DNA from: Candidatus Rokuibacteriota bacterium
GTDB taxonomy: Bacteria; Methylomirabilota; Methylomirabilia; Rokubacteriales; CSP1-6
Assembly (NCBI GenBank): GCA_030647435.1
Contig: JAUSJX010000042.1
Span: forward strand, 1-41,066
Direction: 5' to 3'
DNA length: 41,066 nucleotides
A program made the position numbers and the translations under genes. Below, in pieces: positions 23,191-38,724 of the stretch. The notes beneath the pieces are model-generated. The model searched no databases. It was not told the DNA's origin and worked only from the letters and a program-made list of their open reading frames with translations. Every line of letters begins with the position of its first letter. Position 1 is the stretch's first letter.

Positions 23191-24573
23191 ATGCAGAGCC
23201 ACGAGTCAACTGTCTTCCCCACTCCGGATCGCGTCGCGGCGCTCGACCGGCTCGGCGACGAGATCGCCGAACTCTCCGCGCACCTCGACGCCGCCACCGC
23301 GCGCCTGCTCGCCCTGATCCGGGAGTTCGACGCACGCGGAGGTTGGAACACGGGCTTCCGCTCCTGTGCCGCCTGGCTCTCCTGGCGGGTGGGGCTCGAC
23401 CTTGGCGCGGCCCGTGAACGGGTCCGGGTCGCGCGCTCCCTCGAGACGCTGCCGCTCCTCGCCCAGGCCCTTGCCGGCGGGCAGCTGTCGTACGCCAAGG
23501 TCCGCGCCCTCACCCGGGTGGCCACGCCCGAGACGGAAGCGCGGCTCCTGGGGGTGGCGCGCGCGGGCACGGCCGCTCACGTCGAGCGGATCGTCCGCGG
23601 CTGGCGGTGTGTAGACCGGCGGGCCGAGGCTCGGGAGACCACCCTGCGGCATGCGAGCCGAGCCCTCCACGTGCACCAGGACGAGGACGGCATGGTGGTC
23701 CTCAGGGGGCGGCTCGAGCCTGAAGTGGGGGCGCTCCTCATCCAGGCGCTGGCCGCCGCTCGGGAGGCCCTGTACCAGCGGGCCCGCGTGCCGGAGGGAG
23801 AGGCTGGGGGCGGAAACGTTTCCGCGGAAACGCCCACGATGACCCAGCGTCAGGCCGACGCGCTGGCCCTCCTCGCGGAGACGGCCCTGCACCACGGGCT
23901 CGATCCGGGCGCCCCGGGCGAGCGCTACCAGGTGGTGGTCCACATCGACGCCCAGGCCCTGGCCGAGCCGGATCAGCCGGGCCAGTCCGTCCTCGAGGAG
24001 GGCGCGCGCGTTTCCGCGGAAACGTCGCGGCGCCTGGCCTGCGACGCCAGCCGGGTGGTGATGCGCCATGACGAGGAGGGCCGCGTGGTCGAGATTGGGG
24101 CCCGGACCCGGACGATTCCCCCCGCCTTACGGCGGGCGCTCCACCATCGGGACCGTGGCTGCCGCTTCCCGGGCTGCGGCGTGAGCAATGGCCAGGGGCA
24201 TCATCTCCGCCACTGGGCGCACGGCGGGCCGACGACGCTGTCGAACCTCGCGCTCCTCTGCCGCCGGCATCACCGAGCGGTGCACGAGGAGGGCTTCCAG
24301 GTCGCGCGCGGGCCCGACGGGGCGCTCCGGTTCCTGCGGCCGGACGGCCGCCCGCTGCCCGAGGTGCCGCCGCCTACTCCAGTACCCGCTGATCCCGTCG
24401 AAGCTCTCCGCGCGTGTCACGACTCCCAAGGCCTGCGCCTCAATCCGCGGACGGCGTGTCCCGGCTGGCTCGGGGAGCGGTTGAATGTAGCGTGGGCGAT
24501 CGACGTCCTGCACCCGCGAGCGCAGAATCCTCCCAGGACGGTCCTGCTCCGCGCGGATGAGATCATCCAATGA
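23191..24573 (+). CDS. DUF222-HNH endonuclease-like protein
   Basis: A 460-residue protein with an N-terminal DUF222 domain (about 10-260: helical, including FRSCAAWLSWRVGLDLGAARERVRVA and LSYAKVRALTRVA). The C-terminal HNH nuclease motif lies at about 317-368 (RDRGCRFPGCG, GQGHHLRHWAHGGPTTLSN, LLCRRHHRAVHEEGF). The paired Cys, His-His, Asn and final His of the nuclease are present, so it should be catalytically competent. DUF222-HNH genes are abundant and often repeated in actinobacteria (the 13E12 repeat family) and some uncultured phyla; their DNA target and role are not established. AGGAGG precedes ATG 23191. The gene carries two in-frame copies of a 16-bp palindrome. Confidence 0.88.
   Translation: MQSHESTVFPTPDRVAALDRLGDEIAELSAHLDAATARLLALIREFDARGGWNTGFRSCAAWLSWRVGLDLGAARERVRVARSLETLPLLAQALAGGQLSYAKVRALTRVATPETEARLLGVARAGTAAHVERIVRGWRCVDRRAEARETTLRHASRALHVHQDEDGMVVLRGRLEPEVGALLIQALAAAREALYQRARVPEGEAGGGNVSAETPTMTQRQADALALLAETALHHGLDPGAPGERYQVVVHIDAQALAEPDQPGQSVLEEGARVSAETSRRLACDASRVVMRHDEEGRVVEIGARTRTIPPALRRALHHRDRGCRFPGCGVSNGQGHHLRHWAHGGPTTLSNLALLCRRHHRAVHEEGFQVARGPDGALRFLRPDGRPLPEVPPPTPVPADPVEALRACHDSQGLRLNPRTACPGWLGERLNVAWAIDVLHPRAQNPPRTVLLRADEIIQ
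23812..23832. repeat. Overlapping palindromes inside the HNH gene, copy 1
   Basis: GGAAACGTTTCC (23812-23823) overlaps CGTTTCCGCGGAAACG (23817-23832); both are perfect palindromes. They encode the residues NVSAET between the two parts of DUF222. The 16-base palindrome recurs at 24009-24024 and was not seen elsewhere in the window by eye. Confidence 0.7.
24009..24024. repeat. 16-bp palindrome inside the HNH gene, copy 2
   Basis: CGTTTCCGCGGAAACG is repeated exactly, in the same reading frame, again encoding VSAET. Palindromic symmetry plus conservation of frame suggests a short inserted unit or a recognition sequence. Confidence 0.7.
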
Positions 24574-26372: not shown

Positions 26373-26876
26373 ATGGACGGCGAGCGCGGGCCCACTGATT
26401 CTGAGGTTTCTGCCGGCGCGGTCCGGCGGCTGGTCCAGGCCCTCCGCGAGCACCTGACTCTGTCGCGCTTCCATGCCATCGTCGGGATCATTGCCGGCTT
26501 CATCTCCATCAGCGTCGGGCTCTATACGTATCTCCACTTTTCCAGGCCTGGATCGCCCGTGATCGGTGAGATCGTGGTTATTCTGCAGGACGCTCGGACG
26601 GGCAAGCCCGTCACGGACGCGACGGTGGAGATCCTGACTCTCAAGGACGCGGTGGTGACCACGCTGACGCCGGGGGCCGAGGGGCAGGCCCGCGGGAGGC
26701 TCAAGGAGGGCACCTACCGCCTTCGGGTCATTCACCCTCGCTTCGTGGCCGATGCGCGTCAGGTGCAGATCGTCGCCGGGCAGACAGCGGAGGTACGCTT
26801 GAAGCTCGTCCAGCCGGCCCCGAAGACCGGCCCGATCGACGACGCCGTGGGAGCCGTCAAAAGGATCTTCAAGTGA
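26373..26876 (+). CDS. Membrane-anchored protein with an Ig-like / carboxypeptidase-regulatory-like domain
   Basis: The 167-residue protein begins at ATG 26373; the longer upstream frame is a shadow of the carboxyltransferase gene. A charged cytoplasmic N-terminus precedes one helix (about 33-54, VGIIAGFISISVGLYTYLHF). An extracytoplasmic beta domain follows with the pattern GEIVVILQDARTGKPVTDAT and KEGTYRLRVIHPRF, then VQIVAGQTAEVRLKL, as in carboxypeptidase regulatory-like and PEGA-type folds. Function is unknown. No Shine-Dalgarno is visible, and a TACTCT box nine bases before the ATG is another possible leaderless promoter. The MsrB gene follows after 21 bases. Confidence 0.65.
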   Translation: MDGERGPTDSEVSAGAVRRLVQALREHLTLSRFHAIVGIIAGFISISVGLYTYLHFSRPGSPVIGEIVVILQDARTGKPVTDATVEILTLKDAVVTTLTPGAEGQARGRLKEGTYRLRVIHPRFVADARQVQIVAGQTAEVRLKLVQPAPKTGPIDDAVGAVKRIFK

Positions 26877-26897
26877 AGCTCCGTGGAGGGGGCAGAC

Positions 26898-27302
26898 ATG
26901 TCGACGACCGAAGCGTTCGAGATCACCAAGACCGAGGCCGAGTGGCGAAAGATTCTGACTCCCGAGCAGTTCCATGTCCTGCGCAAGCATGGGACGGAGC
27001 GCGCCGGCACGAGCCTGCTCGACAAGGAATACGGTGGCGGCACATTTGTCTGCGCCGCCTGTGATCTGCCCCTCTTTGCGTCAGACACGAAGTACGACAG
27101 CCGCACAGGATGGCCCAGCTTTTGGACCCCGATCGAGGGGGCGACCCGGAACTCCACGGACCGGAGCTTCTTTTCCGTGCGTACGGAGGTGCACTGCCGC
27201 CGCTGCGGAGGGCATCTGGGCCACGTGTTCGACGATGGGCCCAAGCCGACGGGCCTTCGGTATTGCATGAACGGCGTTGCTTTGCAGTTCCGGCGCGGCT
27301 GA
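26898..27302 (+). CDS. msrB: Peptide-methionine (R)-S-oxide reductase MsrB
   Basis: A 134-residue enzyme that reduces the R-epimer of methionine sulfoxide in proteins. ATG 26898 has GGAGGGGG just upstream. Zinc-binding pairs Cys52-Cys55 (CAAC) and Cys100-Cys103 (CRRC) are present, with the substrate motifs TGWPSFW and HCRRCGGHLGHVFDDGP. The catalytic cysteine is Cys123 in RYCMNGVAL (usually RYCINSASL). No signal peptide is visible, so it acts in the cytoplasm. The N-terminal 45 residues are normal for the family. Confidence 0.95.
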   Translation: MSTTEAFEITKTEAEWRKILTPEQFHVLRKHGTERAGTSLLDKEYGGGTFVCAACDLPLFASDTKYDSRTGWPSFWTPIEGATRNSTDRSFFSVRTEVHCRRCGGHLGHVFDDGPKPTGLRYCMNGVALQFRRG

Positions 27303-27352
27303 GCCAAGAAAAGTCCTGCACACGTTTGGCAACTAGACTACCCTTCCGGCGT

Positions 27353-28513
27353 ATGCGGGCCCGGCGATCCGGAGTGTTCGCTCTCGTTGCGGGGCTTGGG
27401 CTGGCCGTGGCCCAGCCCGCCCTCGCGACGTCGCCAACCGCAGTGCTGGAAGCCTTCTTCGAGGGTGCCAACGCGGTCCTGAAGGTCGTGGATCCGTTCG
27501 GCGATCTGGAGCAGCCCCGCCAAGCCGTTCGCGAGCTGGTCAATGAGATCTTCGACCTCCGGGGGGCCTCCGCGCTCGCGCTCGGCTCCGCGTGGCTTTC
27601 GAGAACTCCGGACGAGCAGGACGAGTTCGTCCGGCTGTTCGCCGCCTACCTCGAGCGCGGCTTCATCGGGATGATCGGCGCGAAGGCCAGCGTATCCGAC
27701 GGCGTGAAGATCCAGTACGTCGACGAGTCGATCGGCGACGAGTGGGCAGGCGTCGCGACCTCGCTGCTGACTCGGAACGGTTTGGAGCTTCCCGTCGACT
27801 ATTGGTTCGTTCGCCGTGGCGACCGCTGGAAGGTGCAGGACGTGGTCATCGATGGGGTGAGCCTCATCGCGAACTACCGGTCGCAGTTCACCCGGGTCCT
27901 GGCCGCCTACCCGTATTCGGAGGTCCTCGCGAGGCTGGGAGGCAGCCAGTCTGACGCGCCCGCCATGGTCGCGGCGCCTGCACCGCAGGTCGCGGGAATT
28001 GTTCCGGCCGCGCAGGCGGCGCCGCCAGTACCGCAGGTCCCGCAGATCCCGAGGATTCCGCCGGTGACGCAGAGCCCATGGAGCGCGAATGCGGCAGCCA
28101 CGCCGCCGGCGGCTGGGACGGCTCTGTCGCCGAGGACCTTCCAAGAAATCCATCTCACGGCGCTCCCCAGCGAAGTGTCGTCCTCGGAGCGAGTTCGGGC
28201 CCCCGTGGCGGCGCAGGTCTCCGAAATCCGCGAGAGGTCTGGGCCGGCGCGCGGTGGCCGGGCGGCGGGCGCCTACTGGATTCAGCTGGGCGTCTTTCAA
28301 TCGGTAGATGCCGCGGCTCACCTGGCGGAGCGATTCAGCCGTGACGGCGCGACGATCTCGAAGACCCGGCTCACGAACGCCGCCGGGAACCGGGTGGGTG
28401 TGTGGGCGCGGGTGCGCGTGGGCCCATTCGCCAATCGCCCGGAGGCCGTGTCGAAGCTCCAGGACCTCTCGGCGCGCGGGCAGGCGGGGTTCATCGCCGA
28501 GGCCCGCGACTGA
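27353..28513 (+). CDS. MlaC-like (Tgt2/Ttg2) periplasmic protein fused to a SPOR domain
   Basis: The 386-residue protein starts at ATG 27353 with a Sec signal peptide (residues 1-26, ending ALATS). Residues 30-197 form an MlaC/Ttg2 phospholipid-shuttle domain (PRQAVRELVNEIFDL, EFVRLFAAYLERGFIGMIG, PVDYWFVRRGDRWKVQDVVIDGVSLIANYRSQF). Residues about 201-305 are a Pro/Ala-rich linker. Residues about 307-386 form a SPOR domain (AYWIQLGVFQSVDAAAHLAERF, RVGVWARVRVGPFANRPEAV), which binds denuded peptidoglycan at division sites. The fusion would tether a lipid carrier to septal peptidoglycan; that role is inference. A TAGACT box lies 13 bases before the ATG, with no ribosome-binding site. A stand-alone MlaC is encoded at 38128-38724. 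Confidence 0.8.
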   Translation: MRARRSGVFALVAGLGLAVAQPALATSPTAVLEAFFEGANAVLKVVDPFGDLEQPRQAVRELVNEIFDLRGASALALGSAWLSRTPDEQDEFVRLFAAYLERGFIGMIGAKASVSDGVKIQYVDESIGDEWAGVATSLLTRNGLELPVDYWFVRRGDRWKVQDVVIDGVSLIANYRSQFTRVLAAYPYSEVLARLGGSQSDAPAMVAAPAPQVAGIVPAAQAAPPVPQVPQIPRIPPVTQSPWSANAAATPPAAGTALSPRTFQEIHLTALPSEVSSSERVRAPVAAQVSEIRERSGPARGGRAAGAYWIQLGVFQSVDAAAHLAERFSRDGATISKTRLTNAAGNRVGVWARVRVGPFANRPEAVSKLQDLSARGQAGFIAEARD

Positions 28514-28717
28514 CTTCGCTCGCTTCACTGTCTCCGTTCGCGCCCGGCTTCCACGCGTAAGCTCGCCCCTCTGACGTCGCCGAAAGCGCCCCCGCTCGCC
28601 GGCGCGATCTTCGCCGGCTCCGCCCCGCATCGGTTGCCGATCAAGCCGGTTGTCTTTATCATGGAGCGCTCTGGAGCAGATGCGACGGCCGCTGGGGCAG
28701 CCGCCGCCCACCGCTTT

Positions 28718-28745
28718 CCGACCACCCCTTACCGACCACCCCTTA
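28718..28745 (+). repeat. Perfect 14-bp tandem duplication before a ribosome-binding site
   Basis: CCGACCACCCCTTA occurs twice head to tail, ending three bases before the GGAGGAGG site of the DinB-like gene. The rest of the 246-base gap (28514-28759) contains no gene. A TTGTCTTTATCAT stretch near 28650-28662 may belong to its promoter. Confidence 0.7.
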
Positions 28746-28759
28746 CCGGAGGAGGCAGC

Positions 28760-29242
28760 ATGGGAGCGCGCGCCGAGCAGCTGGCCAAGAAGTTCGACGA
28801 ATCGTGTGCCGAGTTCAACAAGGTCGTCGAGGGCCTGAGTGATGCGGACTGGAAGAAGGAGACGTCGGCGGAGAAGTGGCCGGTCGGAGTCGTGGCCCAT
28901 CACCTGGCCGAGGGGCACGCGAACGTTGGCGGCCTCGTCCACCTGGTGGCCAAGGCGCAGCCCTTGCCGGGCCTGACGTGGGAGATGATTCACGCGAACA
29001 ACGCCAAGCACGCGAAGGAGCAGGCCGGCGTCACCAAGGCGGCCGCGCTCGCGCTCTTGAAGGCGAACGGGGAGAAGACCAGCGCCCTCGTCCGCGGGTT
29101 GAGCGACGCCGAGCTCGACCGCAGCGCGAGCGTGCTCGCCGGCATGCCGGCCATGACGGCCGCGCAGGCGATCGAGGGGATCCTGATCAACCACGTGCAC
29201 GAACACCTGGGCAGCATCCGGGCCACCATCGGCGCGAAGTAG
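28760..29242 (+). CDS. DinB/DUF664-family protein
   Basis: A 160-residue four-helix-bundle protein of the DinB/YfiT superfamily. ATG 28760 has GGAGGAGG seven bases upstream. Metal-type histidines are visible in the usual places: GVVAHHLAEGHANV after the first helix (about residues 42-55) and NHVHEHLGSIRATIG at the C-terminus. The N-terminal FDESCAEFNKVVEGLSDADW, then KWPVGVVAHH, is characteristic of the maleylpyruvate isomerase/DinB group. Members are often thiol-dependent transferases or isomerases, but no specific reaction can be assigned. It starts a run of plus-strand genes that look catabolic. Confidence 0.75.
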   Translation: MGARAEQLAKKFDESCAEFNKVVEGLSDADWKKETSAEKWPVGVVAHHLAEGHANVGGLVHLVAKAQPLPGLTWEMIHANNAKHAKEQAGVTKAAALALLKANGEKTSALVRGLSDAELDRSASVLAGMPAMTAAQAIEGILINHVHEHLGSIRATIGAK

Positions 29243-38127: not shown

Positions 38128-38724
38128 TCAGGGCAGGCGGGCCCTGACCTTCTTGACGAGCTCTTCGTAGGACGACCTTTTGATGACGGAGTCGAACTGG
38201 GAGCGGAAGTTCCGCACGAGGCTGGTGCGCTCGACCAGCACGTCGGAGATCATCCACCGGGTGCCCTGCCACGCCATCCGGTAGTCCACGCCCACTTCCC
38301 AAGTGGGCTTGAGGGTGACCCGGGTGCGCACGATGGTGTCGTCGCCGTCCGGCGATTCCTCTACGTAGGCGACGGTCTCGGCGCCGTACTGCTCGATCTT
38401 CCCGAGCAGCGCGCGCTCCAGCAGCTCGCGGAAGAGAGGGATGAACTCCGCGCGCTCGTCCGCGGTCCGCGCTTCCCAGTGGGCTCCCAGGGCCCGCTTG
38501 GACATCGCGGTCCAGTCGAAGATGCGGGCCGTGATGGCCCGGACGGCCTGGCGCCGATCCGCGGTCCTGGATTCGGCCTGCAGCGCCGGATCCTCGATGG
38601 CGGCGATGACCCGGTCGATCTCGGGCTTGAGCTGGTCGGTCGCCGGGCCGGCGAACGCGTCGGCCACCGTTCCCAGCACCAGCAGCGCGAGCGCCGCGCC
38701 CTTGATAAATAAGCGATACCGCAT
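38128..38724 (-). CDS. MlaC/Tgt2-family periplasmic phospholipid-binding protein
   Basis: A 198-residue protein with a Sec signal peptide (residues 1-25, ending AFAGPA) and an MlaC/Ttg2 domain over the rest. Segments include RRQAVRAITARIFDWTAMSKRALGAHW, EFIPLFRELLERALLGKIEQY, VGVDYRMAWQGTRWMISDVLVERTSLVRNFRSQFDSVI. Members carry phospholipids between the outer-membrane complex and the MlaFEDB ABC complex. GAGGAG precedes ATG 38724. It is convergent with the Rho-like gene with only eight bases between stops. No other mla gene is adjacent, but mla-like remnants lie at 2628-2886. Confidence 0.85.
   Translation of the reverse strand: MRYRLFIKGAALALLVLGTVADAFAGPATDQLKPEIDRVIAAIEDPALQAESRTADRRQAVRAITARIFDWTAMSKRALGAHWEARTADERAEFIPLFRELLERALLGKIEQYGAETVAYVEESPDGDDTIVRTRVTLKPTWEVGVDYRMAWQGTRWMISDVLVERTSLVRNFRSQFDSVIKRSSYEELVKKVRARLP

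Follow-up and report, generated by a model that had tools for sequence, protein, structure and literature searches.

Classic MlaC is a single soluble domain, encoded in E. coli together with mlaFED. Among SPOR proteins, FtsN, DedD and DamX carry an N-terminal membrane anchor, and RlpA carries an N-terminal lipid anchor and a lytic domain; to our knowledge, none of these four is a lipid carrier. In the field, it is still an open question at which sites of the envelope phospholipids cross from one membrane to the other. Passages of a 2026 paper describe polar accumulation of bridge-type lipid transporters in E. coli and binding of one of these to the SPOR protein DedD (PMC12977461).

The gene described here encodes both domain types in one protein. 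It lies in a 41,066-nucleotide stretch of DNA from a Candidatus Rokuibacteriota bacterium (hereafter the window), in which the original prediction had recognized a signal peptide, MlaC, a Pro/Ala linker and SPOR within one open frame; all four were confirmed, both Pfam domains scoring over their cut-offs in an uninterrupted frame of 386 aa. The features of the gene, and of a second MlaC gene in the window, are as follows:

27353–28513, + strand: MlaC-SPOR fusion gene, 386 aa plus stop, in a single open frame; homologous fusions in at least 25 genomes
27353–27430, + strand: Sec-type signal peptide, residues 1–26, without lipidatable Cys, from sequence
27434–27952, + strand: MlaC lipid-carrier domain, residues 28–200 (Pfam stretch 50–195 = 27500–27937), from PF05494 and structure match
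27953–28264, + strand: disordered Pro/Ala-rich linker, residues 201–304, from pLDDT <50 at 200–304 and composition
28265–28510, + strand: SPOR domain, residues 305–386 (Pfam stretch 305–381), from PF05036, structure match to RlpA SPOR and conserved Q311, F315, R353 and R355
38128–38724, − strand: solo MlaC paralogue without tether, separate from the fusion (PF05494, E 6.2e-38)

Architecture and predicted structure

PF05494 (MlaC) matched residues 50–195 of the window protein (E 7.8e-30; 104.3 bits against a curated cut-off of 26), and PF05036 (SPOR) matched residues 305–381 (E 1.4e-9; 38.6 bits against a curated cut-off of 21). The linker between them spans ∼100 residues (104 aa by our boundaries; 22% Ala, 17% Pro), and linker length ranged from 57 to 181 residues across 31 fusions when measured by domain-model ends. 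Lipoprotein anchoring of the window protein was ruled out, there being no Cys beyond residue 20; in the 30 aligned homologues, starts that give a charged and hydrophobic N-terminus were picked by a simple heuristic and not by a signal-peptide program. Two more specific NCBIfam models fell short of their cut-offs on the window protein, namely NF011697, the Mla-pathway MlaC equivalog (22.2 bits vs. 195), which was also missed by 10 other Rokubacteria MlaC proteins scanned, and TIGR03481, HpnM (56.5 bits vs. 160.1). Because both the equivalog score and the mla gene cluster are lacking, we class the window protein with the MlaC-domain proteins and with the SPOR proteins, but not as Mla-pathway MlaC proper. 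A promoter and terminator scan of positions 26800–28800 returned one promoter-like site at 28634 (0.1 expected), 3′ of the fusion gene, one terminator-like site at 28629–28650 (1.2 expected), and no site 5′ of the fusion gene.

An AlphaFold2 model of the window protein, with an alignment of 14 fusions as input, was confident over the MlaC part (ten-residue pLDDT means of 85–96 over residues 31–190), moderate over the SPOR part (ten-residue means of 48–82), and below 50 over linker residues 200–304. The modelled MlaC part showed the extended NTF2-like fold of MlaC (Z 16.5–19.2 against ten MlaC-type entries): the top match was 8dte (Z 19.2), the lipid-bound structures 2qgu, 11hy, 11if, 5uwb, and 6hsy scored Z 16.8–18.7, E. 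coli MlaC (5uwa) scored Z 17.7, and two MlaC complexes scored Z 13.1 and 12.2. Phospholipid is present in several of the solved structures among these closest folds. The modelled SPOR part matched the SPOR domain of RlpA, both free (6i05) and with denuded glycan (6i09), at Z 9.1 over 75 residues and 2.5 Å, and matched CwlC at Z 7.5. Structure prediction, proposed at the outset as a check on the fusion, thus agreed with both domain assignments.

A conserved family in Rokubacteria

The window protein served as query against 99 related genomes, and a 30-row profile was run against 95 genomes from the phylum, after which the matching regions were fetched and domains were detected in each. In this way, 32 distinct MlaC-SPOR proteins were recovered from at least 25 genomes, all among the 57 examined genomes of the window’s family; the number of fusion-bearing genomes is a lower bound because follow-up was confined to the best matches and many of the genomes are not complete. 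With the same two limits, no fusion was found in 32 of the 57 genomes, and the fusion may therefore not be indispensable. The original prediction had allowed that a profile search might fail to support one of the two domains, but PF05494 and PF05036 were each present in 30 of the 30 intact fusions scanned (E ≤ 0.01). Further Pfam matches in these 30 were all weak, specifically DUF4864 (12 members), 4HBT_2 (2), DUF1967 (1), and DUF1633 (1). One of the 32 fusions, in genome G039, is truncated where its contig ends, at the start of the SPOR domain, and the alignment of 30 fusions omits L049 (contig end) and L051 (start codon missing).

A near relative (G001) carries the same gene with 92% protein identity and identical gene order. 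Two or three fusion copies were present in six genomes, and the second fusion in the window’s own genome, on contig C106, is 51% identical to the window protein. At least 16 matches to the fusion profile were seen in genome G047, a number that may include SPOR-only matches. The named fusion homologues, among the best 80 of 183 relatives, were all from Candidatus Rokubacteria/Rokuibacteriota, which fits the original prediction's guess of Rokubacteria as the source group. Elsewhere in the phylum (38 genomes), the top score among the matches listed was 251 bits, below the weakest fusion (303 bits). Outside the family, where a fusion was scored as one match spanning both the MlaC and SPOR parts of the profile, none was found among the matches listed for 45 genomes, chosen mostly for good matches and including six from the same phylum, and none in five genomes of one other phylum, two of which were also among the 45. 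The MlaC-SPOR protein is a real, conserved family in Rokubacteria.

Within this family, the SPOR part is more constrained than the rest of the protein. In four comparisons, its dN/dS was 0.29, 0.34, 0.15, and 0.27, in each case lower than that of the MlaC part (0.84, 0.52, 0.27, and 0.39) and of the linker (0.60, 0.42, 0.46, and 0.67); the MlaC part of the window gene was weakly constrained relative to G001 (dN/dS 0.84). A profile of 23 SPOR parts matched CwlC, FtsN, RlpA, and DedD among solved structures. The contacts of RlpA with a synthetic glycan include Q270, F274, R309, and R311, according to sections of PMC6895207, and from the alignment and the RVR motif we assign these to Q311, F315, R353, and R355 of the window protein, conserved in 29, 28, 27, and 26 of 30 fusions, respectively; the Gln is lost in L052. 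Since the glycan-contact residues of RlpA are kept, the natural reading of the sequence is that the window protein would be anchored at amidase-processed, mainly septal glycan.

Phylogeny, tail variants, and gene surroundings

An unrooted IQ-TREE phylogeny was computed for 105 MlaC domains, with identical domains merged, three MlaC frames running off contig ends and matches of <120 profile positions excluded, and solo MlaC proteins represented by a sample (the best 80 of 183 relatives). A branch with support 96/92 divided the tree into groups of 41 and 64 rows. On the 41-row side were all 32 SPOR fusions, all four members of a C-terminal-transmembrane class, three proteins with a Pro-rich tail alone, and two short proteins; the 64-row side comprised 63 short proteins and one with a longer tail. 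Not visible to the original prediction was that the fusion belongs to a whole clade, which also includes a variant apparently tethered by a transmembrane stretch. The variants without SPOR include:

L058:7013–7984: MlaC, Pro/Ala linker, and apparent C-terminal transmembrane stretch, no SPOR
L061:9284–10402: MlaC, Pro/Ala linker, and apparent C-terminal transmembrane stretch, no SPOR
L063:3890–5155: MlaC, Pro/Ala linker, and apparent C-terminal transmembrane stretch followed by a basic tail, no SPOR
L064:9239–10942: MlaC, Pro/Ala linker, and apparent C-terminal transmembrane stretch followed by a basic tail, no SPOR
L072:2923–3942: close homologue of the window gene, Pro-rich tail without SPOR
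L076:1969–3294: close homologue of the window gene, Pro-rich tail without SPOR

The transmembrane class was defined by hydropathy, with a cut-off of 1.6 that is also exceeded by the Ala/Val-rich linkers in the SPOR fusions L068 and L074; the four tails of the class were additionally judged by eye. These four (L058, L061, L063, and L064) shared a supported sub-branch of seven with the SPOR forms L056 and L060. A search for a hidden SPOR in any frame gave no match in L058, L061, L063, L064, L072, L076, or L127. The tail of L076 contains a stretch (WAVQLGA) that resembles a decayed SPOR start. On the sequences compared, the long leash seems to have arisen once, in one tethered clade with SPOR as its apparent common anchor, and SPOR seems to have been replaced or lost later in places, gain and loss being read from numbers in the unrooted tree. 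Because SPOR was swapped for an apparent transmembrane helix in a sub-branch, the tether itself may be under selection and may be what selection keeps.

In the window, the neighbours of the fusion gene encode a carboxyltransferase, a carboxypeptidase-regulatory-like protein, MsrB (SelR), a DinB_2 protein, ApbA, and a Meth_synt_2 protein, in an order that is kept in G001; together they suggest no pathway familiar to us. MsrB was considered as a partner and rejected, since its gene lies ∼50 bases upstream in the window and ∼560 in G001 and was not found in the eight further loci that were compared, including three on contigs shorter than 7 kb. No neighbourhood common to all fusions was found, and neighbours were shared within sub-branches only. 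Elsewhere in the window, an open frame at 23191–24573 (+) presumably encodes a DUF222/HNH endonuclease-like protein, and the solo MlaC at 38128–38724 (−) was placed on the same side of the tree as the other solo proteins and has a long branch. The latter gene adjoins one with an ATP-synthase alpha/beta-type nucleotide-binding domain.

Partner-type genes are present in the window’s genome (two MlaE, two MlaD (MCE), one MlaA, one Amidase_3, and one TolB_N), on contigs that differ from those of the fusions, with TolB on a contig other than the window’s. This genome’s MlaE and MlaD gave no match in any of the 32 fusion loci (3.5–41 kb each), the window included, and a separate MlaE-MlaD-MlaC cluster is located on contig C141. 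As the fusion genes look like orphans and such a separate cluster exists, the fusion may not use MlaFED. Against 2 MlaE and 2 MCE matches, the genome has 12 to MlaC (8 nearly full length), that is, many periplasmic carriers without matching transporters.

In four loci from three genera (L052, L056, L059, and L060), the fusion is followed on its own strand by a glycosyltransferase-like gene and then, 3.9–7.6 kb downstream, by tolQ, with tolR and tolA next; the tol genes span 3.9–8.6 kb downstream of the fusion, and tolB is among them in L059 and L060. The Tol-Pal system has been linked to outer-membrane constriction and phospholipid balance in passages of three papers (PMC7391070, PMC7066135, PMC6013679). 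This neighbourhood is confined to one sub-branch (4 of 32 loci) and therefore counts as one event, so that the proximity of fusion and Tol genes may reflect a single historical event.

Proposed function, alternatives, and known systems

Our main reading, to which we give roughly even weight, is that MlaC-SPOR is a septal, wall-leashed periplasmic lipid carrier. After Sec export, the C-terminal SPOR domain would bind peptidoglycan strands that have lost their stem peptides to amidases, mainly at the division septum, and the flexible linker of ∼100 residues would let the MlaC domain reach both membranes from the wall. The domain would then ferry a diacyl lipid, in either direction, between a putative MlaA-like partner in the outer membrane and a putative MlaFED-like MCE/ABC complex in the inner membrane, and lipid traffic would be focused on the site at which constriction and remodelling of the outer membrane are required. 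The periplasm is narrower than ∼360 Å; because the estimated reach of the linker exceeds this width, the carrier could touch both membranes from the wall. That reach is an estimate for the 104-residue linker, which could extend to ∼360 Å at the rate of the MlaA linker, given as 88 Å per 25 residues in a section of PMC10719372. The MlaA-binding charges of E. coli MlaC described in the same section (K84/R90; PMC10719372) could not both be placed together in the MlaC alignment.

A wider proposal, which we advance only tentatively, is that Rokubacteria turned free MlaC into leashed shuttles, held by SPOR on septal denuded glycan and, in a derived form, anchored to the inner membrane through a tail helix. 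Traffic of phospholipids would thus be located at the division site alongside Tol-Pal, and selection would preserve the leash rather than a particular type of anchor. If true, a covalent union of shuttle and septal-wall binder would provide independent evidence tying lipid transport to division, and the SPOR part can be cleanly removed, which makes the transport-division link testable. Beyond the main reading, the weight falls mainly on unspecific wall anchoring, another cargo, or a lipid-sensing role.

SPOR might keep the carrier in the peptidoglycan layer without septal enrichment, the transmembrane form being another way to limit diffusion, and we regard this as rather unlikely. It would account for the apparent exchange of SPOR for a transmembrane stretch in one sub-branch, which would not target the septum, and for the presence of Tol genes, the sole division genes sought, near only 4 of 32 fusions; however, the fusions conserve the residues that contact glycan in RlpA, and sections of PMC6895207 state that every known SPOR protein has a role in division or morphogenesis.

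It is unlikely that the MlaC domain carries a hopanoid or other lipid in place of a glycerophospholipid. The HpnM model did outscore the E. coli-type MlaC model on the window protein (56.5 vs. 22.2 bits), but both scores are far under their cut-offs, and the same preference was shown by 10 of 10 other Rokubacteria MlaC proteins scanned, including the member of the MlaE-MlaD cluster; because it is so widely shared, the preference is uninformative, and the argument from it for a hopanoid carrier was dropped. Several of the closest folds were also solved with phospholipid.

A quite improbable alternative is that transport was lost and that the protein regulates the divisome as a lipid sensor, MlaC reporting the lipid state of the outer membrane to septal wall enzymes. 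The absence of MlaE and MlaD near all 32 fusions, the excess of MlaC matches (12, with 8 nearly full length) over MlaE matches (2) in the genome, and the weak constraint on the MlaC part of the window gene would all suit such a role, whereas a Pfam scan of 30 fusions showed no known wall-enzyme or signalling domains, and the fold of a lipid-holding MlaC appears to be retained in the model. An artefact, in which a frameshift, as raised with the original prediction, or a sequencing or assembly error joined two genes, has a negligible chance of being correct, given 32 distinct fusions in 25 genomes, all in one frame with the same domain order and linker type.

The original prediction also held the arrangement to be one not known as described, and this stood: no description of an MlaC-SPOR fusion was found in the open-licence literature searched for MlaC, Ttg2D, or SPOR paired with partner terms. 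In excerpts of PMC7507113, PMC10853773, and PMC12839542, “mlac” is a program option and not the protein, and in part of a table of PMC6851124, MlaC and SPOR stand in different proteins. The fusion is thus apparently undescribed in the literature, and an unremarked MlaC-SPOR entry in domain-architecture databases is likely.

As a septal, wall-leashed lipid carrier, the fusion would combine features of several known systems. It is like MlaC/Ttg2D, the Mla phospholipid shuttle, in its PF05494 family, fold, and signal peptide, and differs in its disordered linker, its SPOR domain, and the absence of a nearby MlaE or MlaD gene. HpnM, the hopanoid-associated MlaC-like protein, is the best NCBIfam model for the window protein, far below cut-off, and also for the solo Rokubacteria MlaC proteins scanned; that model describes a single-domain protein of 200 positions. 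With FtsN, DedD, DamX, and RlpA, the fusion has in common a C-terminal SPOR domain behind a low-complexity linker, and it keeps the glycan-contact residues of RlpA. In function, its closest known counterpart is the YhdP-DedD interaction of E. coli, in which, as in the fusion, a putative phospholipid transporter is physically tied to a SPOR protein, as passages of PMC12977461 describe it. According to those passages, YhdP is polar independently of DedD and the two apparently do not co-localise; they are two separate proteins, and YhdP is a bridge, whereas in the Rokubacteria fusion the link is covalent and the putative transporter is a shuttle (PMC12977461).
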